64,000 bases of DNA, from the NCBI RefSeq assembly GCF_039596395.1, contig NZ_JBCNJT010000002.1, positions 806,001-870,000 of the forward strand, written 5' to 3'. The notes under the pieces were generated by a model. The model saw only the letters and a list, made by a program, of their open reading frames with translations, was not told the DNA's origin and made no database searches. Below are positions 29,719 through 44,769 of the stretch, piece by piece; position 1 is the first letter of the stretch, and each line of letters begins with the position of its first letter. The position numbers and the translations under genes were made by a program. This DNA is from Fluviicola sp. GTDB taxonomy: Bacteria; Bacteroidota; Bacteroidia; Flavobacteriales_D; Crocinitomicaceae.

Positions 29719-29719
29719 T

Positions 29720-30844
29720 TTGAAGAAACCAAAAGTTATCGTCAGTGTGATCAATGATTTGAATACCGATCAGCGTGTTCACAAGGTTTGTTCATTCATC
29801 GAAAATCAAGGATACGATGTACTGCTGGTTGGCCGGAAACTCAAGTCCAGTCAGGAAATGGAATGCCGCAATTACCGCACCAAACGGTTTAGCATGTACT
29901 ACGAAAAAGGCGCTTTATTTTACGCCTGGTTCAACTTTCGCTTGTTTTGGTTTTTGCTTTTTCGTTCTTCAGACATATTGGTTTCGAACGATCTCGACAC
30001 CTTACTTCCGAATTACCTCGTTTCAAAATTGAAAGGCAAGAAACTGGTATACGATTCCCACGAATATTTCACGGAAGTTCCCGAGTTGATCAGCCGGCCC
30101 AAAGTAAAAGCGGTTTGGGAGCGGATTGAACGTTTCATTTTCCCGAAGCTTAACTATGTGAGCACGGTCAATCAATCCATCGCTGAAAAATACCGGGAGA
30201 AATACGGCGTTTCACTGAAAGTAGTCCGCAATGTTTCACCTCTTTGGAATCCGTCGCATATTCGCTCTAAAAAAGAATTGGGAATTCCGGAAGGGAAGCA
30301 TATTTTGATCATGCAGGGAGCAGGATTGAATGTCGACAGGGGCGTTGAAGAAGCCATCCGGATGATGCCTTTCTTAGATAATGCAGTATTAATTATTGTG
30401 GGTCACGGCGACATTATCCCGGAAATGAAACAGCTGGTAGAGCGGGAAAACTGGCAGGAAAAAGTTTTGTTTTTCGGAAAACGTCCTTATGCGGAATTGC
30501 TTCAGTTCACGCAGCAGGCCGACCTGGGTTTGAGCTTTGATCAGCCCACCAATCCGAATTATTTGTTTTCACTGCCCAATAAGATTTTCGATTACATCCA
30601 TACTTCCACTCCGATCATCTGCTCCGACCTGGTGGAAGTTTCAAAGCTCGTAAAGGGTTATGCTGTTGGGGAAATCGTCACGGATTTTGCTCCTGAACAC
30701 CTTGCCCGGCAAATCCAGGCGGTTTTGAATAATCCCGGATTGATGGAGCAGTGGAAAAACAACTGTAAAATTGCTGCATTGAAAGAAAATTGGGAAGTAG
30801 AAGTACAGCAGCTCAACGAATTCTATCCGAAAGTCCATGCATAA
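29720..30844 (+). CDS. Glycosyltransferase, GT4 (GT-B fold)
   Basis: A 374-residue glycosyltransferase. The N-terminal Rossmann half begins KPKVIVSVINDLNTDQRVHKVC and contains LVYDSHEYFTEVPEL. The C-terminal half has GAGLNVDRGVEEAIRMM and the nucleotide-sugar region with SLPNKIFDYIHTSTPII, as in family 4. The start codon is TTG at 29720, one base after the previous stop; no ATG fits the family N-terminus. It overlaps the next glycosyltransferase gene by 8 nt. Donor and acceptor are unknown; surface polysaccharide or protein glycosylation is inferred. Confidence 0.85.
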   Translation: MKKPKVIVSVINDLNTDQRVHKVCSFIENQGYDVLLVGRKLKSSQEMECRNYRTKRFSMYYEKGALFYAWFNFRLFWFLLFRSSDILVSNDLDTLLPNYLVSKLKGKKLVYDSHEYFTEVPELISRPKVKAVWERIERFIFPKLNYVSTVNQSIAEKYREKYGVSLKVVRNVSPLWNPSHIRSKKELGIPEGKHILIMQGAGLNVDRGVEEAIRMMPFLDNAVLIIVGHGDIIPEMKQLVERENWQEKVLFFGKRPYAELLQFTQQADLGLSFDQPTNPNYLFSLPNKIFDYIHTSTPIICSDLVEVSKLVKGYAVGEIVTDFAPEHLARQIQAVLNNPGLMEQWKNNCKIAALKENWEVEVQQLNEFYPKVHA

Positions 30845-31940
30845 AAAAATCCATGTTGTTTCTTTTGACGTTCCGCTTCCGCCCGATTACGGCGGTGTGC
30901 TGGATGTATTCCTCAGAGCTAAGGGATTAAAGGAACTGGGATATTACGTGATCCTTCATTGCTACGAATACGGGCGTGGGAGAAATCATGATTTTTCGGA
31001 GATTGCAGATGAGATTTACTATTACGACCGTATAAACGGGATAAAATCGGTTTTTTCAAATCTCCCTTACATTGTAAAAAGCAGGAATTCGGAAGAGTTG
31101 CTCAAACGCTTGCTTGCAAACGATGCTCCTGTTTTACTGGAAGGACAGCACTGCACGTTTTGGGCTCAGGAATTGGCTAAAAACAACCGGAAAGTGGCTA
31201 TTCGCATGCACAACATCGAGTGGCAGTATTACCGCGACCTGGCACAGGATGCAAAAACTACTTCCGAGCGTTTGTTCTTCAGCCTGGAATCGCGTAAACT
31301 GAAAAAACAGGAACGGAAGCTGAAGGATATTTCGCTTTTGTGTATCTCGGAAAGCGACCGGGATTATTACCGGGGACTTGGTTTTCACGCATCGTATTTA
31401 CCGGTAACCATCAACTCCGATTTGGTTTTAGAACCATTGGAATCAGAACCTTTTGGATTATACCACGGGAATCTGTCCGTACCGGAAAACATAGAAGCAG
31501 TCAACAAACTGATACAGGAAAACCAACGGGAGAAAATAGAACTTCCTATTGTTATTGCCGGGAAAAACCCAGGCGTAGCACTTGTAAAGAAAATCGAGGC
31601 ACAGGGCTGGCTCTGCATTGCCAATCCAGGCGATCAGGAACTAAATGACCTGATGAGAAGCTGTTCGCTGCACTTGTTGATCGGCTTCAAATCCAGCGGG
31701 ATCAAATTGAAAGTAATCCGTGCACTGCTCACCGGCCTGACGTGCATTTCCACCAAAGAAATGACCGGAACAAGTGGCCTGGAAAAACACTGTGAGATCT
31801 GGGATCCCGTTTTGCCTTTAGCTGGAAAAATCAAGCAGGTATTATCGATCAATCATACCTCTGAAAACCGCTTAGAGGAACTGGAAGACGAGTTCGGAAT
31901 TGAAAAGTTGAAAGTTGCTCTCCAGGAAATCGGATTTTAA
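30837..31940 (+). CDS. Glycosyltransferase-like protein (GT-B fold)
   Basis: A 367-residue protein that starts within the end of the preceding glycosyltransferase gene, so the two form a unit. The N-terminus IHVVSFDVPLPPDYGGVLDVFLRAKGL is typical of GT4-like enzymes (a PPDYGG loop). IRMHNIEWQYYRDLA and the C-terminal GIKLKVIRALLTGLTCISTKEM, with its LK-x-x-R-A-L segment, support the fold. The conserved E-x7-E of classical GT4 enzymes is not obvious, so the activity is less certain. It may act with its neighbour on the same glycan. The 3' end overlaps that of convergent hxlR by 4 nt. Confidence 0.78.
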   Translation: MHKKIHVVSFDVPLPPDYGGVLDVFLRAKGLKELGYYVILHCYEYGRGRNHDFSEIADEIYYYDRINGIKSVFSNLPYIVKSRNSEELLKRLLANDAPVLLEGQHCTFWAQELAKNNRKVAIRMHNIEWQYYRDLAQDAKTTSERLFFSLESRKLKKQERKLKDISLLCISESDRDYYRGLGFHASYLPVTINSDLVLEPLESEPFGLYHGNLSVPENIEAVNKLIQENQREKIELPIVIAGKNPGVALVKKIEAQGWLCIANPGDQELNDLMRSCSLHLLIGFKSSGIKLKVIRALLTGLTCISTKEMTGTSGLEKHCEIWDPVLPLAGKIKQVLSINHTSENRLEELEDEFGIEKLKVALQEIGF

Positions 31941-32350
31941 ATACTTTGTTGCAGTTTAAGCGTTGTAGCTGCCAAAAATCCTGCTTTGTCCTTTTTTACT
32001 TCTTTCAAGAAGGCTTGATGTTGCCCGGAAAGTTCAAAATACTTTTCTCCCCAAAGGTAAATTTCCATTAAAACCGGTAAAAGGTCTATTCCTTTTTGTG
32101 TGAGTTTGTAAAGCACTTTCGATTTGCTTTCAGGGTGTCCGGATTTACTGATAATTCCTGTTTCTTCCAACGTTTCCAATCTCGAAGCCAGGATATTCGT
32201 GGCTATTTTTTCCTCCGATTTCAGGAAATCACCATACGTACAGCTTTTGGCATACATCAAATCACGGATAATCAATAACGACCACTTATCGCCCCATAAA
32301 TCCAACGAACTGCTAACCGGGCAGCCCGATCTTTTTTTGATTTCTTTCAT
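31937..32350 (-). CDS. HxlR-family winged-helix regulator
   Basis: A 137-residue MarR/HxlR-type DNA-binding regulator from MKEIKKRSGC. C10 is at the conserved N-terminal cysteine position (KRSGCPVSSSLDLWGDKWSLLII) used for thiol-based sensing in YodB/HypR-like members. The winged helix spans about 20-95, with FLKSEEKIATNILASRLETLEETGII. It is divergent from an alpha/beta hydrolase gene across a region with two 15-bp elements that are exact inverse copies. I infer that it represses that hydrolase/enoyl-CoA-hydratase pair and itself. The longer frame to 32431 would run through the operator. Confidence 0.88.
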   Translation of the reverse strand: MKEIKKRSGCPVSSSLDLWGDKWSLLIIRDLMYAKSCTYGDFLKSEEKIATNILASRLETLEETGIISKSGHPESKSKVLYKLTQKGIDLLPVLMEIYLWGEKYFELSGQHQAFLKEVKKDKAGFLAATTLKLQQSI

Positions 32351-32362
32351 AAAATTTAATTC

Positions 32363-32421
32363 ACTTGCATTTTGCAAGTAATATTTTATACATTTGCACT
32401 TGCAAAATGCAAGCAAAGTTA
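32363..32421. promoter_or_regulatory. Divergent promoters with inverted operator pair (HxlR/hydrolase)
   Basis: CTTGCATTTTGCAAG (32364-32378) and CTTGCAAAATGCAAG (32399-32413) are exact reverse complements, and each is itself a dyad (ACTTGCA-N3-TGCAAGT at 32363-32379). Between them is TACATTTG (32389-32396), a plus-strand -7 box with a TTG (32365-32367) 21 nt upstream inside the left dyad. The minus-strand -7 box TAACTTTG (32414-32421) abuts the right dyad. A repressor bound here would cover both promoters. Confidence 0.75.
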
Positions 32422-32456
32422 CAACATCCAAATTATTAATACTAAAACAACTGGTA

Positions 32457-33293
32457 ATGAAAACTAATTTTTCTTCGTCTGAAACAAATTACACGACAAT
32501 CAACAACTGGAAAATTGCATACAGACAATTCGGGCAGGGAACACCCATCCTATTCTTCAACCGTTTTCGCGGGATTCTCGATACCTGGGACCCTTTGTTC
32601 TTAGATTCTTTGGCTGTCAATTACAGCATCGTATTATTTGACTATCCGGGAATCGGCGATTCGGAAGGAGAACTTTCTGCAAACCTGGAAGAAGTTGCCT
32701 CAATCGGAATTCAATTGATGGATGAATTGAGTTATGAATCCTTTCACGTTGCCGGCTGGTCTTACGGAGGATTGGTTGCCCAGGCAGCGTTGTTCTTAAA
32801 CAAAGACCGGGTGAAAAAAGGCGTATTCATCGGAACGAATCCTCCCGGAAACAACGAAGTTCCGTTTGAGCCCAGCTTTTTTGAGCATGCCCTGAAACCA
32901 ACCAATGATTTGGAAGATGAAACGGTCATTTTCTTTGAACCCAAGTCAGCAGCTAGTCGTGCTGCAGCCAAAGCTTCCCACGAACGCATCTCCAAACGGC
33001 TGGACCGTGCTAAAATTCCTGCGACGCAAGAGCAGTTTCAAAAATACTTCGGCGGCTCTGCTTACATGAAAGCCGATGCGCAACAGTTCAGAGAGCAGTA
33101 TAAAACCATTGAAAATCCTGTTTTGGTTATTTCTTCCGATCATGACAACAGCTTTGCCGTTGAGAATTGGTTCCCGCTTTTAAGAAATGCACCGACCATG
33201 CAGCATATTATTATCAACGACACGGGACACGGATTGCAGCATCAGCACCCGGAACTGGTTGCCGGTTACATGCACCTTTTTCTTTCAAAATAG
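32457..33293 (+). CDS. Alpha/beta hydrolase
   Basis: A 278-residue hydrolase without a signal peptide. The nucleophile elbow is G-W-S102-Y-G-G (HVAGWSYGGLVAQ). The acid is likely in ISSDHDNSF and the base is the His in NDTGHGLQHQHPE. In the oxyanion region, the usual HG is replaced by FFNRFRG. The substrate is unknown. It is the target side of the HxlR divergent promoter and precedes an enoyl-CoA hydratase-family gene by 21 nt. The upstream frame to 32394 is rejected, because it overlaps the promoter. Confidence 0.85.
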   Translation: MKTNFSSSETNYTTINNWKIAYRQFGQGTPILFFNRFRGILDTWDPLFLDSLAVNYSIVLFDYPGIGDSEGELSANLEEVASIGIQLMDELSYESFHVAGWSYGGLVAQAALFLNKDRVKKGVFIGTNPPGNNEVPFEPSFFEHALKPTNDLEDETVIFFEPKSAASRAAAKASHERISKRLDRAKIPATQEQFQKYFGGSAYMKADAQQFREQYKTIENPVLVISSDHDNSFAVENWFPLLRNAPTMQHIIINDTGHGLQHQHPELVAGYMHLFLSK

Positions 33294-33314
33294 TTTCACT
33301 AAAAACACAACAAC

Positions 33315-34118
33315 ATGATTTTAACAACACAAAAAATCAGCGCTCATTATTGGAAAGTGATTATCAATAATCCGCCTATCAACCTGTTCGGACCCGAGTT
33401 TTCTTTGGAACTCATGGACCTGATGGATGAACTGGAAGCCAACGAAGAATTGAAAGTAGTCGTTTTCGAAAGTGCCAATCCGGATTTTTTCATTGCACAC
33501 CTGGATGTTTTGGGCGCTTCCAATTTCCCGAAAGGCGAAGGAAAAACCGGGCTTTCCAAATCCTGGCCGGATATTGCCAAACGGTTTGAACAAGCACCTT
33601 TTGCAAGCATCGCCTCCATCAGAGGAAGAGCAAGAGGATTGGGAAGCGAATTCGCACAAGCTATGGACATGCGTTTTGCAAGCAAGGAAAAAGCCCTGTT
33701 TGCGCAGGTAGAAATCGGGATCGGGGCATTTCCGGGCGGCGGCGGAATGGAACGTTTACACCTGCTTACCGGCAAAGCAAGAGCTTTGGAAATTTTATTG
33801 AGCGGAAATGATTACGATGCGGAAACTGCTGCTGCTTACGGTTGGGTAAACCGCGCCATTGCAGATGCCGACTTAGACACATTCGTAGATAACCTGGCGC
33901 GGAAAATTGCTTCCTTTGACAAGAAAGTGATCGCTACCATTAAATCCATTATCAACGAACGGGCGGTAAATCCGAAGAACGAACACATCATGGAAACCCA
34001 AACCCGCTTTTTTGAAACACTGGCTCAACCGGAAGCCGGTGCAAGATTAAAAAACCTGTTTGAAAAAGGATTGCAGCAACACGGCGATCTGGAATTAAAC
34101 CTGGGAAGCAGAATTTAA
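33315..34118 (+). CDS. Enoyl-CoA hydratase/isomerase-family protein
   Basis: A crotonase-fold protein of 267 residues. Both catalytic-type glutamates are visible: E112 (GLGSEFAQAMDMR) and E133 (QVEIGIGAFPGGGGMERL). The oxyanion-hole segment FFIAHLDV is variant compared with the usual AGADIKE. This suggests a divergent substrate or a non-CoA role, as seen in stress-linked crotonase relatives. It is probably co-transcribed with the hydrolase upstream under the HxlR regulator. A bidirectional terminator follows. Confidence 0.82.
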   Translation: MILTTQKISAHYWKVIINNPPINLFGPEFSLELMDLMDELEANEELKVVVFESANPDFFIAHLDVLGASNFPKGEGKTGLSKSWPDIAKRFEQAPFASIASIRGRARGLGSEFAQAMDMRFASKEKALFAQVEIGIGAFPGGGGMERLHLLTGKARALEILLSGNDYDAETAAAYGWVNRAIADADLDTFVDNLARKIASFDKKVIATIKSIINERAVNPKNEHIMETQTRFFETLAQPEAGARLKNLFEKGLQQHGDLELNLGSRI

Positions 34119-34524: not shown

Positions 34525-35442
34525 TTAATTAAATGATTGTTTGAATGCAATCGGGGTGAGATTCGTTTTCTTCTTGAAGATCTTATTGAACGATTGCGGG
34601 TGTTCAAAACCCAATTGATATGCGATTTCGGAAACGGATAGGTTAGTGGTCGTTAAGTATTCCTTCGCTTTTTCGATCAATTTTTCATGAATGTGCTGCT
34701 GCGCATTTTGACCGGTTAGCGACCGGAGCAGATCGCTCAGATAACGAGGCGAAACCGCCAATTCTCCGGCAAGGTATTCTACCGTAGGAAGTCCGCTTTT
34801 CAACGGTTCCTGGCTGTCGAAATACGTATCCAACAACTGTTCCATGCGCACGAGAATATCCTCGTTCATTGCCTTTCGTGTAATGAATTGCCGGCTGTAA
34901 AACCGGTTGCTGTAATTGAGCAACACTTCAATTTGGGAAACCAACAGATCCTGGCTGAAATGATCGATCGAATGGTTGAGTTCTTCTTTGATTCCTTCAA
35001 ATACCGCTGAGATTGTCTGCCTTTCTTTTTCCGATAAATGCAACGCTTCATTAGCCGCGTAAGAGAAAAAACCATAGGTTTTCATTTTGGCTGCAAGCGG
35101 GTAATTGCGGAGCAAATCCGGATGAACCAATAGCGTATACCCCGAATAATCTTTTTCCTCCTCCGAACCTGAAATGACTTGATTGGGAGAGAAAAATGAC
35201 AAGCCGCCTTCATCAAAATCATAATAATTCTGGCCGTATTTGATTTTTCCTGTCAGGTTTTTCTTGTACGAGATTTTGTAAAAACCAAGCAACAGCGATT
35301 GAGGTAACTCATCGGCCGGAGTTTGGATATCTGCATAATCGACCAGGCTCACCAAGGGATGCAGCGGTTTCGGAAAGCCCAGTGCTTTGTGCAATTCCGA
35401 AATGGAATGGAATTTTTCCGGGGTTTTATCCGCTTTTTTCAT
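34525..35442 (-). CDS. AraC-family transcriptional regulator
   Basis: A 305-residue regulator from the ATG at 35442 (the GTG two codons upstream overlaps the -7 box). The N-terminal cupin-like effector domain (1-190) contains DEGGLSFFSPNQV. The C-terminal AraC/XylS domain has two helix-turn-helix motifs (VEYLAGELAVSPRYLSDLLR and SVSEIAYQLGFEHPQSFNKIF) and ends in FKKKTNLTPIAFK. The promoter sits directly after the SDR stop, and the ATG is 5 nt from the -7 box. A direct repeat before the upstream SDR gene is a candidate binding site. Confidence 0.92.
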   Translation of the reverse strand: MKKADKTPEKFHSISELHKALGFPKPLHPLVSLVDYADIQTPADELPQSLLLGFYKISYKKNLTGKIKYGQNYYDFDEGGLSFFSPNQVISGSEEEKDYSGYTLLVHPDLLRNYPLAAKMKTYGFFSYAANEALHLSEKERQTISAVFEGIKEELNHSIDHFSQDLLVSQIEVLLNYSNRFYSRQFITRKAMNEDILVRMEQLLDTYFDSQEPLKSGLPTVEYLAGELAVSPRYLSDLLRSLTGQNAQQHIHEKLIEKAKEYLTTTNLSVSEIAYQLGFEHPQSFNKIFKKKTNLTPIAFKQSFN

Positions 35443-35447
35443 CGCCA

Positions 35448-35455
35448 CAAAGGTA
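35448..35455 (-). promoter_or_regulatory. -7 box predicting a leaderless araC-type transcript
   Basis: The minus strand reads TACCTTTG and ends 5 nt before the ATG at 35442. It abuts the upstream SDR stop codon (35456). Confidence 0.55.
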
Positions 35456-36277
35456 TTAAATGTGAAAAGGATTTTCGAGATGAAGTGCTTCCCGCAAATC
35501 CTTTCTAAAGTTTTCGCTTCCTTTTTCTTGTCGTTGTTGTGCGGTTCTTACGGCATCAATCCCAGCCAAATAGCGCAATTGATCTTTCCCATCCGTTGCT
35601 GCTTCAAAAACAACTGCTGCAATTTCGTCCACTTCATTGAATCGGAAAAGGGATTCATTTTGAATCAATGCACCCATCGAATCATTCAAAATCCGGTATT
35701 CCTCATGTGTGACAAACTGCGCCGCGTTCACAAAATTGCTCTTGATTCCGCCCGGAGCAACGGTTTTGATCCCGATATTGAACAAAGCCAAATCGTACGA
35801 AATGCTTTCGCTGAAACCTTCCAGCGCCCATTTGGTAGCATTGTACACACTCGACATCGGACAGGAAGAATAGCCGAAAATGGAAGTTGTTGTGATAAAC
35901 AATCCGCTTCTTTGCTTTTTGAAATAAGGAATGAAGGCTTTCGTCATCCGGATTACTCCTGTGAGATTGGTTTCGATTTGCTGCACGATCTGTGCGTCGG
36001 AAGCGTGTTCCAACGGTCCTGCCAAACCATAACCCGCATTATTGAAAACGACATCTATTTCTTGTTTCGAAGTGATTTCTGCAACGGCTTTGGTAATCTG
36101 TTCCGGGTTGGTAACATCCAGCGCAAGCAAAGTCACGTTTTCGAGGGTTGAAAGTTCGGTTTCCTTTTCAGGATTGCGCATCGTCGCAATGACGTTCCAG
36201 CCTTTCGACTGGAATAATTTGGCCGTTGCCTTTCCCAATCCGGCAGATGCACCCGTAATTAAAATTGTTTTCTGCAT
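35456..36277 (-). CDS. Short-chain dehydrogenase/reductase
   Basis: A classical SDR of 273 residues. The NAD(P) motif TGASAGLG begins near residue 8, NNAGYG is present, a catalytic Ser lies in ITTTSIFG, and Y-x-x-x-K is in SSVYNATKWALEG. An Arg in the ATMRNPEK segment after strand 2 suggests NADP. The substrate is unknown. It is the first of four SDR genes in this island, upstream of an AraC gene. Its own promoter region carries two TCATTTTGGC direct repeats spaced as an AraC-type operator. Confidence 0.9.
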   Translation of the reverse strand: MQKTILITGASAGLGKATAKLFQSKGWNVIATMRNPEKETELSTLENVTLLALDVTNPEQITKAVAEITSKQEIDVVFNNAGYGLAGPLEHASDAQIVQQIETNLTGVIRMTKAFIPYFKKQRSGLFITTTSIFGYSSCPMSSVYNATKWALEGFSESISYDLALFNIGIKTVAPGGIKSNFVNAAQFVTHEEYRILNDSMGALIQNESLFRFNEVDEIAAVVFEAATDGKDQLRYLAGIDAVRTAQQRQEKGSENFRKDLREALHLENPFHI

Positions 36278-36302: not shown

Positions 36303-36365
36303 CAAAGATCAATCGTAACAGCCGGGCGCATGTTGCCAAAATGAGTTGGATTGTAGCCAAAATGA
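36303..36365 (-). promoter_or_regulatory. SDR promoter with AraC-type direct-repeat operator
   Basis: On the minus strand TCATTTTGGC occurs twice (36356-36365 and 36335-36344) with a 21-bp period, two helical turns, as AraC activators prefer. A near-consensus -7 box GATCTTTG (36303-36310) follows 24 nt downstream, and the ATG at 36277 is 25 nt further. The operator position suits an activator. Confidence 0.6.
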
Positions 36366-36367
36366 CC

Positions 36368-36838
36368 TCACCGCTTGGCCGCTTTTTCAAAGATCGCGTC
36401 AAAGTCCTTCGTATCTAAAAACGCGGTCACTTTCACGATTTTTCCTTTGTCCAGCTGCATGAACCAGGCGTAACTCACGTTGTAAGGATCACCGTTGAAA
36501 GCTGTTGCTTTTCCGTCCCAAATGACGATGACGGTATTTCCGTCTGCGTAGATTTCGCGCACTGTTGGCACAATTTTCTGAGTAAGCAATTCGTTCAGTG
36601 GAACAATGACCTCGTCCAGCAATTGCTGTTTGGAAGTATAAGTTTTAGACAAGGCCGCACTTCCTGAAATGGTCCAGCTGGCATCTTCGGCAAGCAGGTC
36701 GAAAAAGCTACCTGTTCCTGCAGCCCAGCGATCGAAACCGTCGCGGATGAGTTGTTTGTTTGCTGCTTCGGTTTGACTAAATGCATTCATTCCAAACAAA
36801 CTAAAAAGAGTAAATGCTGTGAGTTTAAACGTTTTCAT
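36368..36838 (-). CDS. Exported NTF2-like protein
   Basis: A 156-residue protein with a signal peptide (MKTFKLTAFTLFSLFGMNAFSQ) followed by a SnoaL/NTF2-like domain: IRDGFDRWAAGTGSFFDLLAEDASWTI, YTSKQQLLDEVIVPL, VIVIWDGKATAFNG and AWFMQLDKGKIVKVTAFLD. It is a periplasmic relative of ketosteroid-isomerase-like proteins. The substrate is unknown. It starts 12 nt after the SDR gene at 36851-37690 ends, so the two form an operon. Confidence 0.85.
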   Translation of the reverse strand: MKTFKLTAFTLFSLFGMNAFSQTEAANKQLIRDGFDRWAAGTGSFFDLLAEDASWTISGSAALSKTYTSKQQLLDEVIVPLNELLTQKIVPTVREIYADGNTVIVIWDGKATAFNGDPYNVSYAWFMQLDKGKIVKVTAFLDTKDFDAIFEKAAKR

Positions 36839-37920: not shown

Positions 37921-38574
37921 TTATTGTTTGTACTCAACTGCGGTTCTTTCGCTGTAGATTTTCCAAAACAAGTCTGCTAAAACATCCGGCGAATGCGTGG
38001 CGCTGTCGGGAGTAATGAAACCTGCAACGGTTAGCAAGCCAACGTAAATTCCGTCGTCTTTCAAACGTTCATGCAACTGGTAAGCGAGGCTTCTGATTCC
38101 TGCTTTTCCAATAGATAATGAGCCGTAGGAAGGATGCGGATTGATGGCCAAACCACCACCGGTTATAAGAAATGCGCCCTGCTTTTGTTTCAATCCGTCG
38201 TGAGTTGCCTGCAAAGCGTGTAAGGCATTGGCCACGTTGATTGTGAATTCTTGCGTAAGACTTTCCGATGTTTCTTCCAGGATGTCTTTTTCTTTCAGAA
38301 CTGCTGCGTTGTAAAGCACTACATCGAACCCATCGTTCCAGTTGCATAATTCGCGGATGGCTTTTCCCAGTTCTTCCGTGTTCCCGGCATCTGCCAGGGC
38401 GTAATCCACCTGGATTCCTTTCGAGTTAAGGTGTTCTTTCAATCGTTCCAGGTTTCCCCTGTTGCGGCTGATCAGGTTAATGGCGAATCCTTCGGCTGCG
38501 AACTTCTCCGCAACTCCCCGGCTTAGCCCTTGACCTGCTCCGATAATTAATACTGATTTTTTCATTTCACTCAT
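37921..38574 (-). CDS. Short-chain dehydrogenase, atypical
   Basis: A 217-residue SDR-like protein. The cofactor motif is GAGQGLSRG (residues about 11-19) rather than TGxxxGIG, and SRNRGNLERL suggests NADP. The active site is atypical: ITGGGLAINPHPSYGSLSIGKAGIRSLA has Y-x-x-x-x-x-G-K spacing instead of Y-x-x-x-K. The protein may therefore have an altered mechanism. Its promoter carries the 18-bp box/43-bp/-7 architecture shared with the GlcG-like and VOC genes, and its leader holds a 23-nt hairpin repeat also found before osmC. Confidence 0.8.
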   Translation of the reverse strand: MSEMKKSVLIIGAGQGLSRGVAEKFAAEGFAINLISRNRGNLERLKEHLNSKGIQVDYALADAGNTEELGKAIRELCNWNDGFDVVLYNAAVLKEKDILEETSESLTQEFTINVANALHALQATHDGLKQKQGAFLITGGGLAINPHPSYGSLSIGKAGIRSLAYQLHERLKDDGIYVGLLTVAGFITPDSATHSPDVLADLFWKIYSERTAVEYKQ

Positions 38575-38587
38575 TTTTTAATTTTAA

Positions 38588-38610
38588 ATCCCGACATTCA
38601 TCGTCGGGGT
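38588..38610 (-). repeat. 23-nt hairpin repeat, copy 1, in the SDR leader
   Basis: Identical over 23 nt to 42903-42925. It folds with a 6-bp stem, CCCGAC (38590-38595) and GTCGGG (38603-38608). It lies 14 nt upstream of the SDR start codon and downstream of the -7 box, so it would be on the mRNA. Confidence 0.7.
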
Positions 38611-38622
38611 AATTTGATACAA

Positions 38623-38690
38623 CAAAGTTCCGGATAAAGCGGTGCCTGCTTCATAGCGATTGCAAAGCACGGATTATGAATATCAAAGAT
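38623..38690 (-). promoter_or_regulatory. Shared-architecture promoter, copy 1 (SDR)
   Basis: On the minus strand: ATCTTTGATATTCATAAT (38690-38673), exactly 43 nt, then AACTTTG (38629-38623) and GTATCAAATTA. Within the 43 nt the block CTTTGCAATCGCTATGA matches the other two copies. The -7 box is GAACTTTG, one base off TAnnTTTG at each of the first positions. Confidence 0.7.
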
Positions 38691-38962
38691 TGGGAAGTAG
38701 AAACCAACTTAACGGTGAGAGTGGTTATTTTTATGAACCGCTAAGAGAAGAAGAGCGCAAAGAGTTTTTCCTTAATGAAGGATTGAGAAAGTAGATGTAA
38801 TGGAAGAACTTTATTACCAAAGAAAAGTCTCCCCAATTAACAGGAAGACTTCAATATATCTCATTATTCTTTCTACAAGAACCCGGTGATCAATTATTCT
38901 CTGCGTCCTTCTTTTCTTTGCGGTGAAAAATAAAAAGTGGTGTATTGACAGAGATCTCTGCG
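38691..38962. other. Gene-free stretch with repeat remnants
   Basis: Together with the promoter above this is a gap of almost 390 nt between two minus-strand genes. It holds two remnants of the CGCAAAG-type repeat in inverted orientation (38736-38762 and 38900-38926). I see no ORF, tRNA or terminator of quality. Confidence 0.5.
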
Positions 38963-39901
38963 TTAAAAACTTCGTCTGAATTCAGCCGGTGTGAAACCGG
39001 TATTCTTTTTAAAGAACTGGCTAAAGTTGGGCTGCTCGGCAAAACCAACGCTGTAGCTGATGTCCTGTAAACTCCAGTCGGTTTGAACCAGCAAAGCTTT
39101 GGCTTCGTCCAAAATCCGGTTACGGATATGTGTGCTGGCATTTTGGCCGGTATGTTTCTTTAGAACTGCATTCAAGTAATTCGGGTGCATTTGCAGGTCG
39201 TTTGCAAATTCTTTAGCGGTTTTGATCCGGATCGGATTGGCATAATTGATCCCGGAAGTTTCTCTCTCCAGCAGATCGAAGAATTGGTGAATGTTCGAGT
39301 AGTCTTCCGTTACCTCATCGGGTTTCGGGAAACGCGCCACTTTCATGCTTTCCACCATCAGCAGCTGCAAGAAAGCCTGCATGGAATCTTCCCGGAATTC
39401 GCTGGTCTCGTCCTGCTCTTCTTCCTGCATTTTTTCAAAGTACTGGCTGATGCGCGGGACTTCGCTTTCCGTCAAACGGATCACGCTTTTGCTTTTGTCC
39501 GAAAATAACCCATACTTGTCAATAATAGCTTTCAGCTGTAAATGCTTGCTGATAAAAGACTTTTTGAAGAGCACGTAAAAGCCTCCGGACTCTTCCGAGA
39601 GGTTTTTCCAGGAAATAATATCGTTCGGATGAATGAACAACAGTGTCGGCTCATCGATGTAATAGGTGTTCAGGCCCATAGTGAAAACACCGGTTCCTTT
39701 TGTGATCAACAAAGCTTTGTAAAATTCCCTTCTGTTTGGCGACAAATAATTCCGGCATTCGTGCTGCTCGCGGTTAAACACCCGGATGGCCCAGTCTTCA
39801 AAGAATTCGCGAAAAACCGGGATCATATCCGGCAAATCCCGGAGGGTGTTGATTTCCTTGCTGTCAAGAGTTTCTCTGATCATCTGCATACTGATTGGCA
39901 T
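38963..39901 (-). CDS. AraC-family transcriptional regulator
   Basis: A regulator of about 312 residues from the ATG at 39901 (MPISMQMIRETLDSKE). An N-terminal cupin-like domain contains the ITKGTGVFTMGLNTYYIDEPTLLFIHPNDIISW pattern. Two C-terminal helix-turn-helix motifs follow: AKEFANDLQMHPNYLNAVLKKHTG and SLQDISYSVGFAEQPNFSQFFKK, ending in TGFTPAEFRRSF. It is the regulator nearest to two of the three shared-architecture promoters, so it is the leading candidate to bind them. The frame extends to 39946, and the exact start is uncertain. Confidence 0.9.
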   Translation of the reverse strand: MPISMQMIRETLDSKEINTLRDLPDMIPVFREFFEDWAIRVFNREQHECRNYLSPNRREFYKALLITKGTGVFTMGLNTYYIDEPTLLFIHPNDIISWKNLSEESGGFYVLFKKSFISKHLQLKAIIDKYGLFSDKSKSVIRLTESEVPRISQYFEKMQEEEQDETSEFREDSMQAFLQLLMVESMKVARFPKPDEVTEDYSNIHQFFDLLERETSGINYANPIRIKTAKEFANDLQMHPNYLNAVLKKHTGQNASTHIRNRILDEAKALLVQTDWSLQDISYSVGFAEQPNFSQFFKKNTGFTPAEFRRSF

Positions 39902-39980
39902 TATAAAATTAAACTTTTCGGAATTAAATTCAAACGGACGACCCATTTGCCGTCCGTTTAGAAAGTTGACTGCCTGCCAA

Positions 39981-40790
39981 TTAGATTTGGTTTTCCCAGG
40001 CTTTCAATTGGTGTTCTTTCAACATGTCTTCCACGAATTGCGGAACCACGTTTCTGAATTTACCGGTATCGGAAGGTACAATCTCGATCATGGCATCGAT
40101 CATTTCCTGCGGATCCAATCTTCCTTCAGGTGTTCCTAACAAGGAGTCGAAATTGGCTTTCATATCGGCACGTTTGGTGAAGTTTTTCTCATCGTCCAAC
40201 CAACGGAAAGCGTTCTCAGCCATTGTTTCGTTGAAACCTGTCAGGTATGCTCCCGGATTGATTGTCTGGATCTGGATTCCGTATACTTTCAACTCATCTG
40301 CCAATGCTTCTGCGATTGCTTCCAGCGCGTGTTTGGTTGAAACGTAAATCCCGTAACCGGAAGGTGTGAACAAACCACCCATGGAAGAAGTGAAAACGAT
40401 TTTTCCTTTTTTACCTTCTTTGATCCATTTGGAACTGAAGCCCTGAGCCAGTTCAAGCGGTGCAAACACATTGGTTTCGTAATTTCCGCGCACCAAATCC
40501 AATGGAATTTCGAATGCCGGTCCGCTTTCACCGATTCCTGCGTTGCTGAAGAACACATCGATATCCAGTTTCAAGGCATTTCTTACATCGTACTTATCCA
40601 GGATATCCAGTTTGATCACTTCGATGTTGTCCTGAAGTCCGAGTTCTGCTACTTTTTGACGCATACTTGTCAATTGCGGCGCGATTTGCACTCCTGCGAT
40701 TACTTTGTGGCCCAATTTAGCCAAACCGATTGCTGTTCCTTCTCCAAATCCGGAAGCTGCTCCGGTGATTAAAATTGTTTTTGTTTTCAT
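39981..40790 (-). CDS. Short-chain dehydrogenase/reductase
   Basis: An SDR of 269 residues: ITGAASGFGEG at 7-17, SNAGIGESGP, a catalytic Ser in IVFTSSMGGLF, and Y-x-x-x-K in YGIYVSTKHALEA. The GASGFG variant and the acceptor loop are typical of the AraC-linked SDR subgroup. It lies 80 nt downstream of the GlcG-like gene without a terminator, so it may belong to the same unit, under the second shared-architecture promoter. The substrate is unknown. Confidence 0.9.
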   Translation of the reverse strand: MKTKTILITGAASGFGEGTAIGLAKLGHKVIAGVQIAPQLTSMRQKVAELGLQDNIEVIKLDILDKYDVRNALKLDIDVFFSNAGIGESGPAFEIPLDLVRGNYETNVFAPLELAQGFSSKWIKEGKKGKIVFTSSMGGLFTPSGYGIYVSTKHALEAIAEALADELKVYGIQIQTINPGAYLTGFNETMAENAFRWLDDEKNFTKRADMKANFDSLLGTPEGRLDPQEMIDAMIEIVPSDTGKFRNVVPQFVEDMLKEHQLKAWENQI

Positions 40791-40870
40791 GATACTTAAT
40801 TTTTGATTGTTTATTTATTTGTTATTAGTCATCTGCCGAAGCAGACATTTTTTGATTGTTTACTTGTTTT

Positions 40871-41269
40871 TTATAGCTGGCTTCCAGCCGTTGCGATTTC
40901 AAAATCCTGGTCCGGACTTCCACCTGAAACTCCGATGTAGGCTACGATTTGATTTCCTTCCGTGACCGGAACCCCGCCTTTAAATCCTACGAGTCCGCCA
41001 TTCGTGTTCACCATTCCATAAGTGCCGTTTGCCGGGTTTAAGAATTCGCCTACAGATTCGGAATTCATTCTAAAAAGCATCGCTGTTTTTGCTTTTCCCA
41101 TCGCGATATCGATTGATCCGAGGTAGGCATCATCCATTCTTACGAATGCTTTCAGGTAACCTGTTGTGTCCAAAATGGCGATGTTTGCATTGACCCCCAA
41201 TTCGTTTGCTTTATTCACCGCTTTCTCGAGTGATGCAAAAGCTTGTTTTTGTGTTGTTTCCATGTTCAT
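40871..41269 (-). CDS. GlcG/HbpS-like (DUF336) protein
   Basis: About 132 residues from MNMETTQKQ (an ATG two codons downstream is also possible). The pattern of ANIAILDTTGYLKAFVRMDDAYLGSIDIAMGKAKTA, then GGLVGFKGGVPV and IGVSGGSPDQDFEIATAG, is that of the GlcG/HbpS family. Some HbpS members bind haem and sense oxidative stress; others are small-molecule-binding subunits. No export signal is present. It has the second shared-architecture promoter and a gene for an SDR follows. Confidence 0.87.
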   Translation of the reverse strand: MNMETTQKQAFASLEKAVNKANELGVNANIAILDTTGYLKAFVRMDDAYLGSIDIAMGKAKTAMLFRMNSESVGEFLNPANGTYGMVNTNGGLVGFKGGVPVTEGNQIVAYIGVSGGSPDQDFEIATAGSQL

Positions 41270-41294
41270 TTTCTTTTTGTGAATTTCTATGACA

Positions 41295-41362
41295 CAAAGG
41301 TGCAGCGTTTGCAGGCGGGGCATTATACGGATAACACAGGCTTTATTATGAAAATCAAAGAT
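41295..41362 (-). promoter_or_regulatory. Shared-architecture promoter, copy 2 (GlcG-like)
   Basis: On the minus strand: ATCTTTGATTTTCATAAT (41362-41345), exactly 43 nt, then ACCTTTG (41301-41295). The second block inside the 43 nt is CTGTGTTATCCGTATAA. The -7 box would be CACCTTTG. The ATG at 41269 is 25 nt away. Confidence 0.7.
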
Positions 41363-41587
41363 GCCGGCAGAAAAGTTCGATTTTGCCCTCTTTTCAGGCT
41401 TATTTCATGAGTTTGTACAAAAATCAGGTGATCAATTTACCACAGATGCACAGATTATTTGTGGCGCTTACCAGACGCCACTCGAGTGAGTGCGGTAGCC
41501 GAGCTAAAATCTGTGCATCTTGGGAAAGACAAAAAGATGCCTGCTAGCAGGCGCTTTTCATACTTATATAAGTTTATTCCACAAAAA
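41363..41587. other. Gene-free stretch between the GlcG-like promoter and a terminator
   Basis: I see no convincing gene. It holds a GCCTGCTAGCAGGC palindrome (about 41538-41551) and short imperfect inverted segments, possibly degraded repeats. Part of a dispersed CACAGATGCACAG-type motif is at about 41440-41455. Confidence 0.4.
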
Positions 41588-41612
41588 AACTCCGGCATCA
41601 GATGCCGGAGTT
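41588..41612 (-). terminator. Terminator of the osmC-hydrolase unit
   Basis: An 11-bp perfect stem (AACTCCGGCAT 41588-41598 with 41602-41612, loop of 3). On the minus strand it is followed by seven T residues. It lies 31 nt after the hydrolase stop codon. Confidence 0.85.
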
Positions 41613-41642
41613 CCTTCTGTAACTCGTTTTTATATAAGATCC

Positions 41643-42428
41643 TTATAACTTGATCTCTGTAGCGGCTTTGATGATCACATCGGCAACCGCCTTTGGCTGT
41701 GAAATGAAAACGACATGGCTTCCTTTTATTTCGGTGATCTTTGTATTGGATCTTTTGTACATGTTTCGCTCAATTTCAGGTGCGATCGATTTATCCTCTG
41801 TAGCCACAATCCCGTAAGCAGGTTTTGTTTTCCAGGCAGCATTGCTTACCGTTGCAGTGAGCGTACTTACATGAAGTGCACCCTGGGATGCGTACATAAA
41901 ATCGGCGTCTTTCTTACTCAGGTCCGCACAAAACCCAGCGTGGTATTTTGCCTGGTCGTAATAAACGATTCCTTTGTCGTTCGGAGGCAATACACCGTTT
42001 TCAGGAGCCGGCGGAGCAGTTTGCAACCATTGAAGGGCGGTTTCTCCTTTGTCGGGCTGAAGTGCGGCAACATATACCAGGCCGGCTGCTTTCGGATGAT
42101 TTCCGGCTTCGGTAATCACCACGCCTCCCCAGGAATGGCCAACCAGAATCGCGGGGCCATCCTGCATATCCAAAGCATTCAGGGTTGCAGTCACATCGTC
42201 TTCAAGCGATGTTAAGGGATTTTGAACGACTGTGACATGATACCCTTTTGCGGTTAATACTTCGTAGAGATTCTTCCAGCCTGAACCGTCAGCAAAAGCT
42301 CCGTGAACCAGTACCACATTTTTGATACCTGCGGGTGTTGTTTGTGCATTAGCGCTTGTAAATCCGATGAAAAGGAATGCTATTGCCAACAGGAAATAAC
42401 GATTTAATTGTGTCTTTAAAGTTTTCAT
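41643..42428 (-). CDS. Exported alpha/beta hydrolase
   Basis: A 261-residue hydrolase with a signal peptide (about residues 1-29, ending SANAQ). The HG oxyanion motif is VHGAFADGSGW, the nucleophile elbow is G-H-S99-W-G-G, and the base is likely in IKGSHVVFISQP. It is close to the EstC/salicylate-esterase-like group with a GHSWGG elbow. It is periplasmic and the substrate is unknown. It begins 29 nt after osmC ends and shares its transcription unit, which suggests a role in oxidant or organic-peroxide response. Confidence 0.87.
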   Translation of the reverse strand: MKTLKTQLNRYFLLAIAFLFIGFTSANAQTTPAGIKNVVLVHGAFADGSGWKNLYEVLTAKGYHVTVVQNPLTSLEDDVTATLNALDMQDGPAILVGHSWGGVVITEAGNHPKAAGLVYVAALQPDKGETALQWLQTAPPAPENGVLPPNDKGIVYYDQAKYHAGFCADLSKKDADFMYASQGALHVSTLTATVSNAAWKTKPAYGIVATEDKSIAPEIERNMYKRSNTKITEIKGSHVVFISQPKAVADVIIKAATEIKL

Positions 42429-42457
42429 GTTCTTTTTAGTTTTTCGGTGAATGAATT

Positions 42458-42880
42458 TTAGTTATTAGTCAGTTCAACAGAAAGCGTGATTTCAGCTTTC
42501 AGTAATTTGGAAACCGGACAAACTTCTTTTGCTTTTTGTGCCAGTTCGATAAATTGTGCTTCTGAAATGTTCGGAACGTTTCCTGTTGTATTTAAGTGAA
42601 TCGTTGTAATGGTCCCATCTTCAAAAGTCACTTTTGCGGATGTGTTCAAATCTTCGGCTGTGAATCCTGCTTCATTTAATAAGAAGCTCAACTGCATGGT
42701 AAAACATCCGGAATGTGCTGCTGCCAATAATTCTTCCGGGTTTGTTCCTACTCCTTCTGCGAAGCGGGTCTTAAACGATAATTGTGCATTGTTCAAAGTC
42801 GTGCTTTGAGTACTGATTGTACCTGTTCCTTCCATTCCGGTACCTTTCCAATTTGCGTTTGCTGTTCTTGAGAATTTCAT
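42458..42880 (-). CDS. osmC: OsmC-type organic hydroperoxide reductase
   Basis: A 140-residue OsmC-family thiol peroxidase. The peroxidatic Cys59 is in AAHSGCFTMQLSF and the resolving Cys121 in AKEVCPVSKLL; E49 or E50 precedes in NPEELLAAAH. Start TANANWKGTGMEGTG fits E. coli OsmC rather than Ohr. It reduces organic hydroperoxides with dihydrolipoyl or similar thiols. It is divergent from an OxyR gene whose redox cysteines are intact, so peroxide control by OxyR is likely. The 23-nt hairpin repeat lies in its leader. Confidence 0.93.
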   Translation of the reverse strand: MKFSRTANANWKGTGMEGTGTISTQSTTLNNAQLSFKTRFAEGVGTNPEELLAAAHSGCFTMQLSFLLNEAGFTAEDLNTSAKVTFEDGTITTIHLNTTGNVPNISEAQFIELAQKAKEVCPVSKLLKAEITLSVELTNN

Positions 42881-42902
42881 AATCTGTTTTTTTAATTGTT
42901 AC

Positions 42903-42925
42903 ATCCCGACATTCATCGTCGGGGT
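42903..42925 (-). repeat. 23-nt hairpin repeat, copy 2, in the osmC leader
   Basis: Identical to 38588-38610. The 6-bp stem is at 42905-42910 and 42918-42923. It lies 22 nt upstream of the osmC ATG, downstream of the promoter, so it would be transcribed. Confidence 0.7.
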
Positions 42926-42969
42926 TAATACTTGTTTTCTTCAACCGGCTTATCCGATGTTTGATGAGA

Positions 42970-43000
42970 CAAATTTAGGGCGGGTGTTTTCATAAATCAA
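42970..43000 (-). promoter_or_regulatory. -33/-7 promoter of osmC
   Basis: On the minus strand TTG (43000-42998) and TAAATTTG (42977-42970) are 20 nt apart, a good Bacteroidota promoter. It predicts a leader of about 80 nt containing the hairpin repeat. Confidence 0.6.
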
Positions 43001-43039
43001 ATCAATAATTTTTTACCTTTATAAATAAAAATTATAATC

Positions 43040-44008
43040 ATGACGATTCAGCAATTAAAATATATCGTGGCTTTGGACGAAGAACGCCATTTTGCAAGGG
43101 CTGCGGAAGTATGCATGATCTCCCAGCCGGGGCTCACCATCCAATTAAAAAATTTAGAAGAAGAAATCGGAATAAAAATTTTTGACCGGAATAAAGTGCC
43201 GCTTACTCCGACTAAATTGGGTGTGGAAATCATTCACCGTGCTAAAAAGATCCTGCGTGAAACGAATGAGATCCGCGATTTTGTCATTAACGAGAAGAAC
43301 CTGCTGGAAGGGGAAGTAAGAGTGGGTGTGATTTCAACTTTGTCTCCGTATCTGATTCCGAAATTTATCAAAGCCATGCGCGAAGCTGCGCCGAAAGTAA
43401 ACTTTATCATCCGGGAAGGATATACCGGGCAATTAATGGCAGAGGTGGAAAACGGTACGCTGGATATCGCCATTATGGCCACGCCGACCGGCAGACCGAA
43501 TTTGGTGGAACACCCGATTTTTATGGAACCGTTCATTGCATATCTGCCACCGGATCATCCCATGGCCGGCGATCCGTTTTATAAACTACAGCCGAAAGAC
43601 AGGCCCGAACTCTTGCTGCTTCATCACGAATATTGTTACAATGCACAGTTGCTGGACATTTGCGAACTGAAAGAACCGGGTAAAATCAAAGATCAGTTTC
43701 AGTACGATATTACTTCCATTGAGACCCTTAAAAATTTGGTACGTGCCCAGTTGGGATTTGCAATCATTCCGATGCTTTCGGTAAACAATGAAAAAGACCG
43801 GACGTTGTTTAAGCCATTTGCAGATCCGAAGCCGGTTCGTGAAATAAGCTTTGTAGTAGCCGATACCTTCTCCAAAAAATTATTGCTGGAGAAGATGAAC
43901 GAGGCCATCTACCAGTGTTTGCCGGAAGAATTAAAGGCAGATTTCAGTTATAAAAAGATCCGGTGGAACGATTCGCCATACTTTATAGATGCCGTGAGTA
44001 AATTGTGA
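43040..44008 (+). CDS. oxyR: Hydrogen peroxide-sensing LysR regulator OxyR
   Basis: A LysR-family regulator of 322 residues. The N-terminal winged helix (TIQQLKYIVALDEERHFARAAEV) and LysR effector domain are intact. The redox pair is C199 and C208 (EYCYNAQLLDICEL), the same numbering and x8 spacing as E. coli OxyR, in which these cysteines form the H2O2-induced disulfide. It faces osmC divergently. The ATG at 43040 follows an AT-rich region with TACCTTTA at 43014-43021, one base from -7 consensus. Confidence 0.95.
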   Translation: MTIQQLKYIVALDEERHFARAAEVCMISQPGLTIQLKNLEEEIGIKIFDRNKVPLTPTKLGVEIIHRAKKILRETNEIRDFVINEKNLLEGEVRVGVISTLSPYLIPKFIKAMREAAPKVNFIIREGYTGQLMAEVENGTLDIAIMATPTGRPNLVEHPIFMEPFIAYLPPDHPMAGDPFYKLQPKDRPELLLLHHEYCYNAQLLDICELKEPGKIKDQFQYDITSIETLKNLVRAQLGFAIIPMLSVNNEKDRTLFKPFADPKPVREISFVVADTFSKKLLLEKMNEAIYQCLPEELKADFSYKKIRWNDSPYFIDAVSKL

Positions 44009-44125
44009 GTCACTCTCAGGATTTATTTGCACGCAGATCGCGCGGATTTACGCAGATATGGTTGAGGTATAACCTCTGCTCTTCGCTTGATCGGAGCAAA
44101 TTGTGCGAAAATGCATAGTTGATCA

Positions 44126-44193
44126 ATCTTTGATTTTCATAATGATCGCTGTGCAATGACTATAAGAAACCGGGGTGTTTGCCCGCAACTTTG
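44126..44193 (+). promoter_or_regulatory. Shared-architecture promoter, copy 3 (VOC)
   Basis: ATCTTTGATTTTCATAAT (44126-44143), exactly 43 nt, then AACTTTG (44187-44193) and GTATCAAATTA. The inner block is CTGTGCAATGACTATAA. The ATG at 44230 is 36 nt downstream. It is on the opposite strand to copies 1 and 2, but in the same orientation relative to its gene. Confidence 0.7.
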
Positions 44194-44229
44194 TGGTATC
44201 AAATTATTCAACACAAAAATTTAGAAATC

Positions 44230-44769
44230 ATGAAAAGAGCAATTAAAAACACCTTGATGGTCATCGGTTTATTCGCAGCAACTGCAGTAAACGCACAAAC
44301 ACACAATCACGAAACAGGATTTGATATGCCTGCTTTGAACCCGAAAAGCCCCTTGGCAGAATTGGTAGGAAACCATGTTGGAATTCGCGTTCCTGATTAT
44401 GACGCAGCTATTAAATGGTATACCGAAAAACTGGATTTCCGTGTGATTCACGAATGGCCTTATGCCGATGAAAAACTGGCTTACCTGGCTCCGCCGAATA
44501 CCAATGATTTTTGGGTAGAAATTCTTGCCGGAGGTAAATTATCCAAGCCGGTTATTTATTCCGATTTGGGTAAAAGTCTGGAAGAAGCAGGTTTCCACCA
44601 CATTTGTATGGATGTTTCCAACGTAGACCAAATCGTTGCAGAATTGAAAAAGCGCGGAGTAACGATTGTTGGTGAAACATTCTACCTGGAAGCAATCGGC
44701 CGCAAGCTGGCATTTTTCCAGGACCCATGGGGAAATATGATCGAACTATCCGAAGTGGTAAAGAAGTAA
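44230..44769 (+). CDS. Exported VOC-superfamily (glyoxalase-like) protein
   Basis: A 179-residue protein from MKRAIKNTLM with a signal peptide (about 1-23, ending AVNAQ). The VOC fold has a complete candidate metal set: H49 (GNHVGIRV), E97 (FWVEILAG), H123 or H124 (GFHHICMDV) and E172 (GNMIELSE). Most VOC enzymes are cytoplasmic, so the signal peptide is unusual. It is the third gene with the shared-architecture promoter. The substrate is unknown. The upstream frame to 44179 is rejected, because it overlaps the promoter. Confidence 0.88.
   Translation: MKRAIKNTLMVIGLFAATAVNAQTHNHETGFDMPALNPKSPLAELVGNHVGIRVPDYDAAIKWYTEKLDFRVIHEWPYADEKLAYLAPPNTNDFWVEILAGGKLSKPVIYSDLGKSLEEAGFHHICMDVSNVDQIVAELKKRGVTIVGETFYLEAIGRKLAFFQDPWGNMIELSEVVKK

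Follow-up and report, generated by a model that had tools for sequence, protein, structure and literature searches.

The three promoters analyzed here lie in a 64,000-nucleotide stretch of the genome of a Fluviicola species (contig NZ_JBCNJT010000002.1, positions 806,001 to 870,000; hereafter "the window", with position 1 as its first letter). They precede genes for an SDR-family oxidoreductase (SDRa), a GlcG/HbpS-like protein (GlcG) and a VOC-family protein. An AraC-family regulator encoded between the first two is, according to our analysis, very probably the protein that reads the operator common to all three. The relevant features are as follows.

37921–38574, minus strand: target 1, the SDR-family oxidoreductase SDRa (Pfam adh_short).
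38622–38629, minus strand: –7 element AACTTTGT of the SDRa promoter, with TTTG at 38626–38623 (alignment, composite scan).
38651–38667, minus strand: second half-site of the SDRa promoter, 21 bp downstream of the first and at the would-be –33 position (alignment, profile self-similarity).
38673–38690, minus strand: upstream half-site box of the SDRa promoter (exact match, column profile).
38963–39901, minus strand: AraC-family regulator that we predict to read the operator, with a cupin domain, two helix-turn-helix (HTH) units and Cys49 (Pfam, co-occurrence, fold).
39981–40790, minus strand: a second SDR-family oxidoreductase, SDRb (Pfam; gene order kept in relatives).
40871–41269, minus strand: target 2, GlcG, first gene of a probable operon ending in araC (Pfam HbpS-like).
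41294–41301, minus strand: –7 element ACCTTTGT of the GlcG promoter, with TTTG at 41298–41295 (alignment, composite scan).
41323–41339, minus strand: second half-site of the GlcG operon promoter (alignment, profile).
41345–41362, minus strand: upstream half-site box of the GlcG operon promoter (exact match).
44126–44143, plus strand: upstream half-site box of the VOC promoter (exact match).
44149–44165, plus strand: second half-site of the VOC promoter (alignment, profile).
44187–44194, plus strand: –7 element AACTTTGT of the VOC promoter, with TTTG at 44190–44193 (alignment, composite scan).
44230–44769, plus strand: target 3, a VOC/glyoxalase-fold protein (Pfam Glyoxalase) with a signal-like N-terminus read from the sequence.

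A first-pass annotation had described this architecture as an 18-bp box, exactly 43 bp and a conserved –7 block. We found the box as an exact match at 38690–38673 and 41362–41345 on the minus strand and at 44126–44143 on the plus strand, and in a gapless alignment from box to –7, the 43 bases are followed in every case by A(A/C)CTTTGT. The same alignment contains the proposed inner block CTkTGywATnnsTATrA, and two of the three copies share GTATCAAATTA downstream of –7, as had been reported. The window holds no further box at up to three mismatches, and none of 100 shuffled versions reached three boxes. Across the 4,635,315-base genome the composite pattern box-N43-AMCTTTGT, allowing up to three mismatches, matches three times, always in the window and without a single mismatch; the reversed pattern matches once. 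A sequence-only profile, R1, gave the same answer. Its training set comprised 55 sites, the three of the window among them, out of the 61 introduced below; these three score 57.8, 56.1, and 52.9 bits, and the next best place in the genome 18.6 bits. The box alone, at up to three mismatches, occurs at 35 places in the genome versus 9 in the reversed control. We take most of these places for chance; the best one outside the window (one mismatch, C5:140700) lacks TTTG at the right place.

This operator follows the AraC gene across genomes. With this protein as the query, we fetched 59 loci from a collection with one genome per species, using six peptide patterns as a non-exhaustive seed. Identity to the window's AraC is 90% in Flavobacterium terrisoli, 82–84% in the nearest Dyadobacter and Mucilaginibacter, 69–71% in several Chitinophaga and 48–49% in several Spirosoma. 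A scan for 33 fixed positions of the box and inner block, with the –7 element left unused and a cut-off of at least 25/33, returned 58 sites in 41 of the 59 loci and none in the same loci reversed (best score 24). All 41 belong to the 49 loci that encode a near full-length homologue of at least 48% identity (L061–L109); the other 10 (L110–L119) contain no site at this cut-off. Together with the three of the window, these sites make up the set of 61.

In a second survey, R1 was run against 222 genomes from the family of Dyadobacter endophyticus, with stricter search filters that lose weak matches and with E-values that are rough. Genomes were called AraC-positive if they encode a homologue of at least 49% identity (E ≤ 2e-94), with up to 10 candidates scored per genome; ten genomes having only 33–40% matches were counted as negative. 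By this definition 28 of the 222 genomes contain the AraC gene, and 45 contain a site at E ≤ 1e-3. The sites were found in 28/28 AraC-positive versus 17/194 AraC-negative genomes at E ≤ 1e-3, in 23/28 versus 3/194 at E ≤ 1e-5, and in 17/28 versus 1/194 at E ≤ 1e-8. By hand count, 9 of the 28 AraC-positive genomes contributed training sites to R1 and the other 19 contributed none. The AraC gene and a site are at most 5 kb apart in 26 of the 28 genomes.

The alignment of all 61 sites reveals a feature that the first reading had missed. When the column profile is compared with itself at shifts of 5–31 positions, only the shift of 21 gives a match, which identifies the box as the first half and the inner block as the second half of one 21-bp direct repeat. 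TTTG of the –7 element begins 41 bp after the start of the second half-site and occupies the identical column in 59 of the 61 sites; of the remaining two, one is displaced by a single base and the other reads TTTA. A query with the 15-base core of box 1, allowing two mismatches, gave 90 matches versus 15 in the reversed control; Of these matches, 64 have TTTG where it is expected and 45 have CTnTG 21 bp downstream. Bacteroidota promoters have a consensus of TTG at –33 and TAnnTTTG at –7, with a characteristic spacing. The first two bases of the –7 element are CA in 37, GA in 18 and TA in 5 of the 61 sites, and no site has a TTG starting at columns 32–40, the presumed place of the –33 element. 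A pyrimidine–purine bump at columns 71–72 may mark the transcription start. A direct-repeat operator of about 21 bp adjoining the core promoter is a trait of the AraC/XylS family that is present here; the assignment to this particular protein comes from co-occurrence.

Co-occurrence, synteny and geometry thus support the suggestion of one regulator and one regulon with AraC as the best candidate. Judging by the DNA, we consider it very likely that the three promoters form a local regulon of AraC 38963–39901 that is activated through the 21-bp direct repeat. In the model that we propose, two AraC subunits would contact the same helix face, each at a half-site resembling CTTTGAWWTTCATAA. The downstream one of these half-sites would sit where a Bacteroidota promoter has its –33 element, upstream of a weak –7 element (CA/GA-nn-TTTG). 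With this arrangement, the regulator probably replaces the missing –33 contact and so activates transcription. The site, its spacing, the lack of TTG at the –33 columns and the co-occurrence with AraC are observed; binding, activation and the operon are inferred from them.

Several observations weigh against this assignment. At the strict cut-off, eight of the 49 loci encoding a homologue of at least 48% lack a site (L072, L083, L084, L097, L101, L104, L106, L108); six of them score 23–24, a range in which the reversed control also matches. The other two, L083 and L097, contain no match as high as 22, and in L097 the AraC match is preceded by just 932 bases. L111 and L119 carry partial AraC matches (52% and 72%) but no site. 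Two of the 28 AraC-positive genomes, G260 and G261, have AraC and the sites found on different contigs. The genomes of the family survey are related, so Fisher values for the co-occurrence overstate the evidence. A TTG does start at column 31 in 21 of the 61 sites; going by the spacing usual in Bacteroidota promoters, we judge it too far upstream to serve as a –33 element. The window scans found no site at the nearby genes SDRd, ABH, and OsmC. In three paralogues of 35–39% identity that we examined, Val replaces Cys49, and their promoters are similar. Finally, 21 sites occur in the 17 AraC-negative genomes, one of them strong (G171, E 6.2e-10).

Of these 21 sites, 19 were fetched and scored with an ungapped matrix, applying a cut-off of 14 bits. 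A scoring site beside a more distant AraC gene of 30–39% identity was seen in six of them (L167, L170, L174, L176, L177, L178). Another four contain an AraC match but lack a site at this cut-off (L168, L169, L172, L173), L165 and L166 carry a site without a full AraC match, and the remaining seven show neither (L171, L175, L179–L183). The DNA downstream of the strong site of G171 (L165, around 5219) yielded no homologue of any known target. Read by eye, it gives the impression of a degraded SDR gene and a degraded VOC gene. Behind an extra site in an AraC-positive genome (L188, around 5012) lies a match of 18 residues to SDRa, and the DNA there, read by eye, likewise looks like gene remnants.

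The site could instead be read by another AraC paralogue of the same genome, such as AraC2 (34525–35448). The genome has 29 AraC-like matches including AraC 38963–39901, relatives contain paralogues with similar half-sites, and AraC2 homologues occur in some of the same clusters. However, AraC2 is accompanied by a repeat of different sequence, and a homologue of AraC2 above 40% identity is present in 8 of the 59 loci compared with 49 of 59 for AraC 38963–39901. We consider this explanation very improbable.

A lower probability still attaches to the LysR/OxyR-like gene at 43040–44008, which the first-pass annotation had named as an alternative regulator, and which, in the manner of LysR proteins, would recognize the T-N11-A-like box at about –65. 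This gene adjoins the VOC target and matches the NCBIfam OxyR model with 4.4e-57 and 193.7 bits, which is below the cut-off of 329, and the box contains an imperfect TGA-N3-TCA dyad when read from the sequence. Yet a T-N11-A inverted repeat is not conserved: the 61-site profile contains no inverted repeat above the cut-off. All 28 site-bearing genomes that were searched do contain a match to the LysR gene at E ≤ 1e-30, but mostly to OxyR-like proteins of 30–39% identity. A close homologue (71–72%) occurs in two of the 28, on contigs other than that of the site, and among the 59 AraC loci the gene appears once (E ≤ 1e-15 over half the length), as a 26% match in L101. OxyR is thus unsupported as the regulator.

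Equally hard to believe is the idea, also raised earlier, of tandem promoters in which both CTTTG blocks are –7 elements. The commonest reading of box 1, CATCTTTG, does resemble that of the –7 element, CAACTTTG. But the TTCATAA that follows CTTTG in box 1 is nearly invariant, and tandem promoters do not predict the step from box to –7 that is fixed in 59 of the 61 sites. Moreover, three sites of a diverged clade (L102, L105 and L107) no longer have TTTG in the upstream half-site but keep TTTTCATAAAAA there, while L101 of the same clade retains TTTG. A mobile repeat or duplicated promoter without a regulator has a practically negligible chance of being right: the cluster seems to be horizontally shared, but the sequence between the conserved blocks differs among sites, the sites precede non-homologous genes at a fixed distance to –7, and they follow the AraC gene across genomes.

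With AraC 38963–39901 as the predicted regulator, the gene order suggests that the system controls its own production. GlcG, SDRb and AraC are codirectional and separated by 80 and 79 bases, and the window scans found no site between them, including the gap upstream of SDRb. The three genes are therefore probably co-transcribed, and the GlcG promoter probably transcribes araC too, so the system should activate itself. The order GlcG-SDRb-AraC recurs in L061, L062, L066, L095, L099, and L109; L064 has it too, apart from an extra SDR between SDRb and AraC. SDRa follows AraC in three Flavobacterium loci (L061, L062, L095) and in L064, a Dyadobacter locus. The best same-genus match over most of the AraC protein is 35% (13 genomes) compared with 90% in a Flavobacterium, and the cluster appears to be shared horizontally. 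Since its GC profile is unremarkable, the case for transfer is made by gene distribution alone.

The genes that follow the 61 sites encode an SDR, GlcG or VOC protein in most cases. Other targets are a zinc alcohol dehydrogenase (L093; L094 looks alike), an Oxidored_FMN protein (L103), a cupin (L102), a DinB_2 protein (L096) and an aldo/keto reductase (L092, at a site with TTTG one base off). Among additional sites that came up afterwards, one stands before an aldo/keto reductase gene (L191) and one before the gene of a cupin protein (L198, in a system with a 30% AraC). In G266 a VOC target lies more than 3 Mb from a 68% AraC homologue and about 0.18 Mb from a 50% homologue. The regulated enzymes would be of a kind that handles carbonyls or electrophiles. 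In the window, the leaders of SDRa (38590–38609) and OsmC (42905–42924) have a hairpin-like stretch, CCCGACATTCATCGTCGGGG, in common.

The domain content of the regulator makes it, by sequence, a member of the AraC/XylS family: Pfam assigns HTH_18 with 8.9e-21 and AraC_binding with 21.2 bits, marginally above the cut-off of 21.1. A structure model based on 27 sequences (mean pLDDT 80.5; residues 1–34 below 50) contains cupin strands and two HTH units, and solved AraC-type DNA-binding domains match by sequence and fold. Foldseek ranks full-length ToxT and Rns first by E-value, with TM scores of only 0.31–0.42, so the domain arrangement is not settled. The regulatory domain resembles those of RhaR (TM 0.77) and E. 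coli AraC (TM 0.67, both by target length). Cys49 is present in all 50 aligned sequences, that of the window included; 21 of these show no other cysteine, although the first residues are not always covered. In the model it lies between strands 39–43 and 51–55. A cysteine at this position is found in 3 of 19 paralogues compared. This conservation makes a thiol or electrophile sensor plausible. The signal could be a reactive carbonyl or another electrophile, perhaps sensed by Cys49; this is the most speculative step of the model, and we would sooner bet against it than on it.

The geometry of this operator may extend beyond one regulator. The following feature lies in front of AraC2 and its neighboring SDR gene.

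36303–36368, minus strand: paralogous operator with TCATTTTGGCTACA and TCATTTTGGCAACA 21 bp apart, then TTTG at 36306–36303, before the SDR gene 35456–36277 and AraC2 34525–35448.

We examined 21 AraC-paralogue regions of the genome (20 fetched regions and AraC2; seven others and AraC 38963–39901 itself were left out) for direct repeats at every spacing from 15 to 30 with a repeat match of at least 11/16, followed by TTTG. A 21-bp repeat with TTTG 37–42 bp after the start of the second half is present in the non-coding stretches of 13 of the 21 regions, and every other spacing was found in at most 2 of 21. Among 37 control regions of the same genome the count is 3 at 21 bp and 5 at the best other spacing; two of these controls overlap AraC regions (L029 and window 28801–33600), and some overlap one another. 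When the coding filter was removed, the numbers rose to 17/21 paralogue regions and 5/37 controls. The spacing of 21 was taken from the finding itself, and so was the starting point of the offset window, which was widened to 37–42 after data had been seen and is partly fitted. Besides AraC2, the regions with repeat and TTTG are L205–L210, L214–L216, L218, L222, and L224, each with its own half-sites, for example TTTCGGCTAAA in L218 and GAAATYCTCACCA in L224, compared with TCATTTTGGCWACA for AraC2. In L206 (C1:249440) a box with two mismatches lies about 24 bp past the end of the match to a 31% AraC paralogue.

In other genomes the signal is weak, and the rule is not demonstrated outside this one: among 29 AraC loci, 13 have a repeat at the expected cell at a cut-off of 11/16, with up to 14 at other 21-bp offsets and 12 at another spacing; at 12/16 the expected cell holds 3 of 29 and other cells up to 5. 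Tentatively, and with somewhat more doubt than belief, we propose that AraC activators of Bacteroidota share a rigid grammar, in which half-sites stand 21 bp apart, the second replaces –33 and TTTG follows 37–42 bp on, and that the present regulator is a horizontally shared one-cysteine electrophile switch. If true, the letters of the half-site would name the regulator and the geometry its class, and operators of many uncharacterized AraC proteins could be read straight from sequence. The rule picks candidate operators beside 13 of 21 paralogue regions in a single genome, and would make the large AraC repertoire of the phylum testable from sequence. For the regulator described here, an uncharacterized and widely shared Bacteroidota protein, the analysis provides a precise candidate operator and regulon. 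In the open-licence literature we found no report of this regulon, its operator or a fixed step from AraC site to –7 in Bacteroidota.

The half-site geometry itself has precedents. E. coli AraC occupies araI1 and araI2 with the same 21-bp geometry. The two systems are also alike in placing adjacent half-sites beside the polymerase and in the fold of the regulatory domain, but E. coli AraC acts at a sigma-70 promoter, responds to arabinose and forms a DNA loop, and its aligned regulatory domain is only 14–15% identical. The araI1 and araI2 sites are named in PMC6018408. A 21-bp repeat is already known for AraC-type regulators of Bacteroides. The motifs of Bacteroides RhaR, an AraC-family protein, show a direct-repeat periodicity of 21 bp (PMC3870299), but this regulator controls rhamnose genes, and the available part of that report calls the motif unique and mentions no –7 distance. 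The hybrid two-component systems (HTCS) of Bacteroides have an AraC-type DNA-binding domain and direct repeats averaging 21 bp apart, for which a dimer on one face of the DNA has been proposed (PMC3878776). Unlike the present regulator, HTCS are membrane-bound sensor hybrids for polysaccharides; the terms "promoter element" and "transcription start" are absent from the portion of the HTCS paper available as text (PMC3878776). In its gene context the regulator may resemble E. coli YqhC, an AraC/XylS activator of yqhD and yqhE encoded beside carbonyl-reducing enzymes, although yqhC is transcribed away from its targets (PMC5297802). The targets found here include, by family, SDR, alcohol dehydrogenase, aldo/keto reductase, Oxidored_FMN and VOC proteins, alongside cupin and DinB_2 proteins. 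Taken by its sequence features, the regulator resembles an AraC-type activator that binds beside the polymerase, and activation is what we predict for its three promoters.

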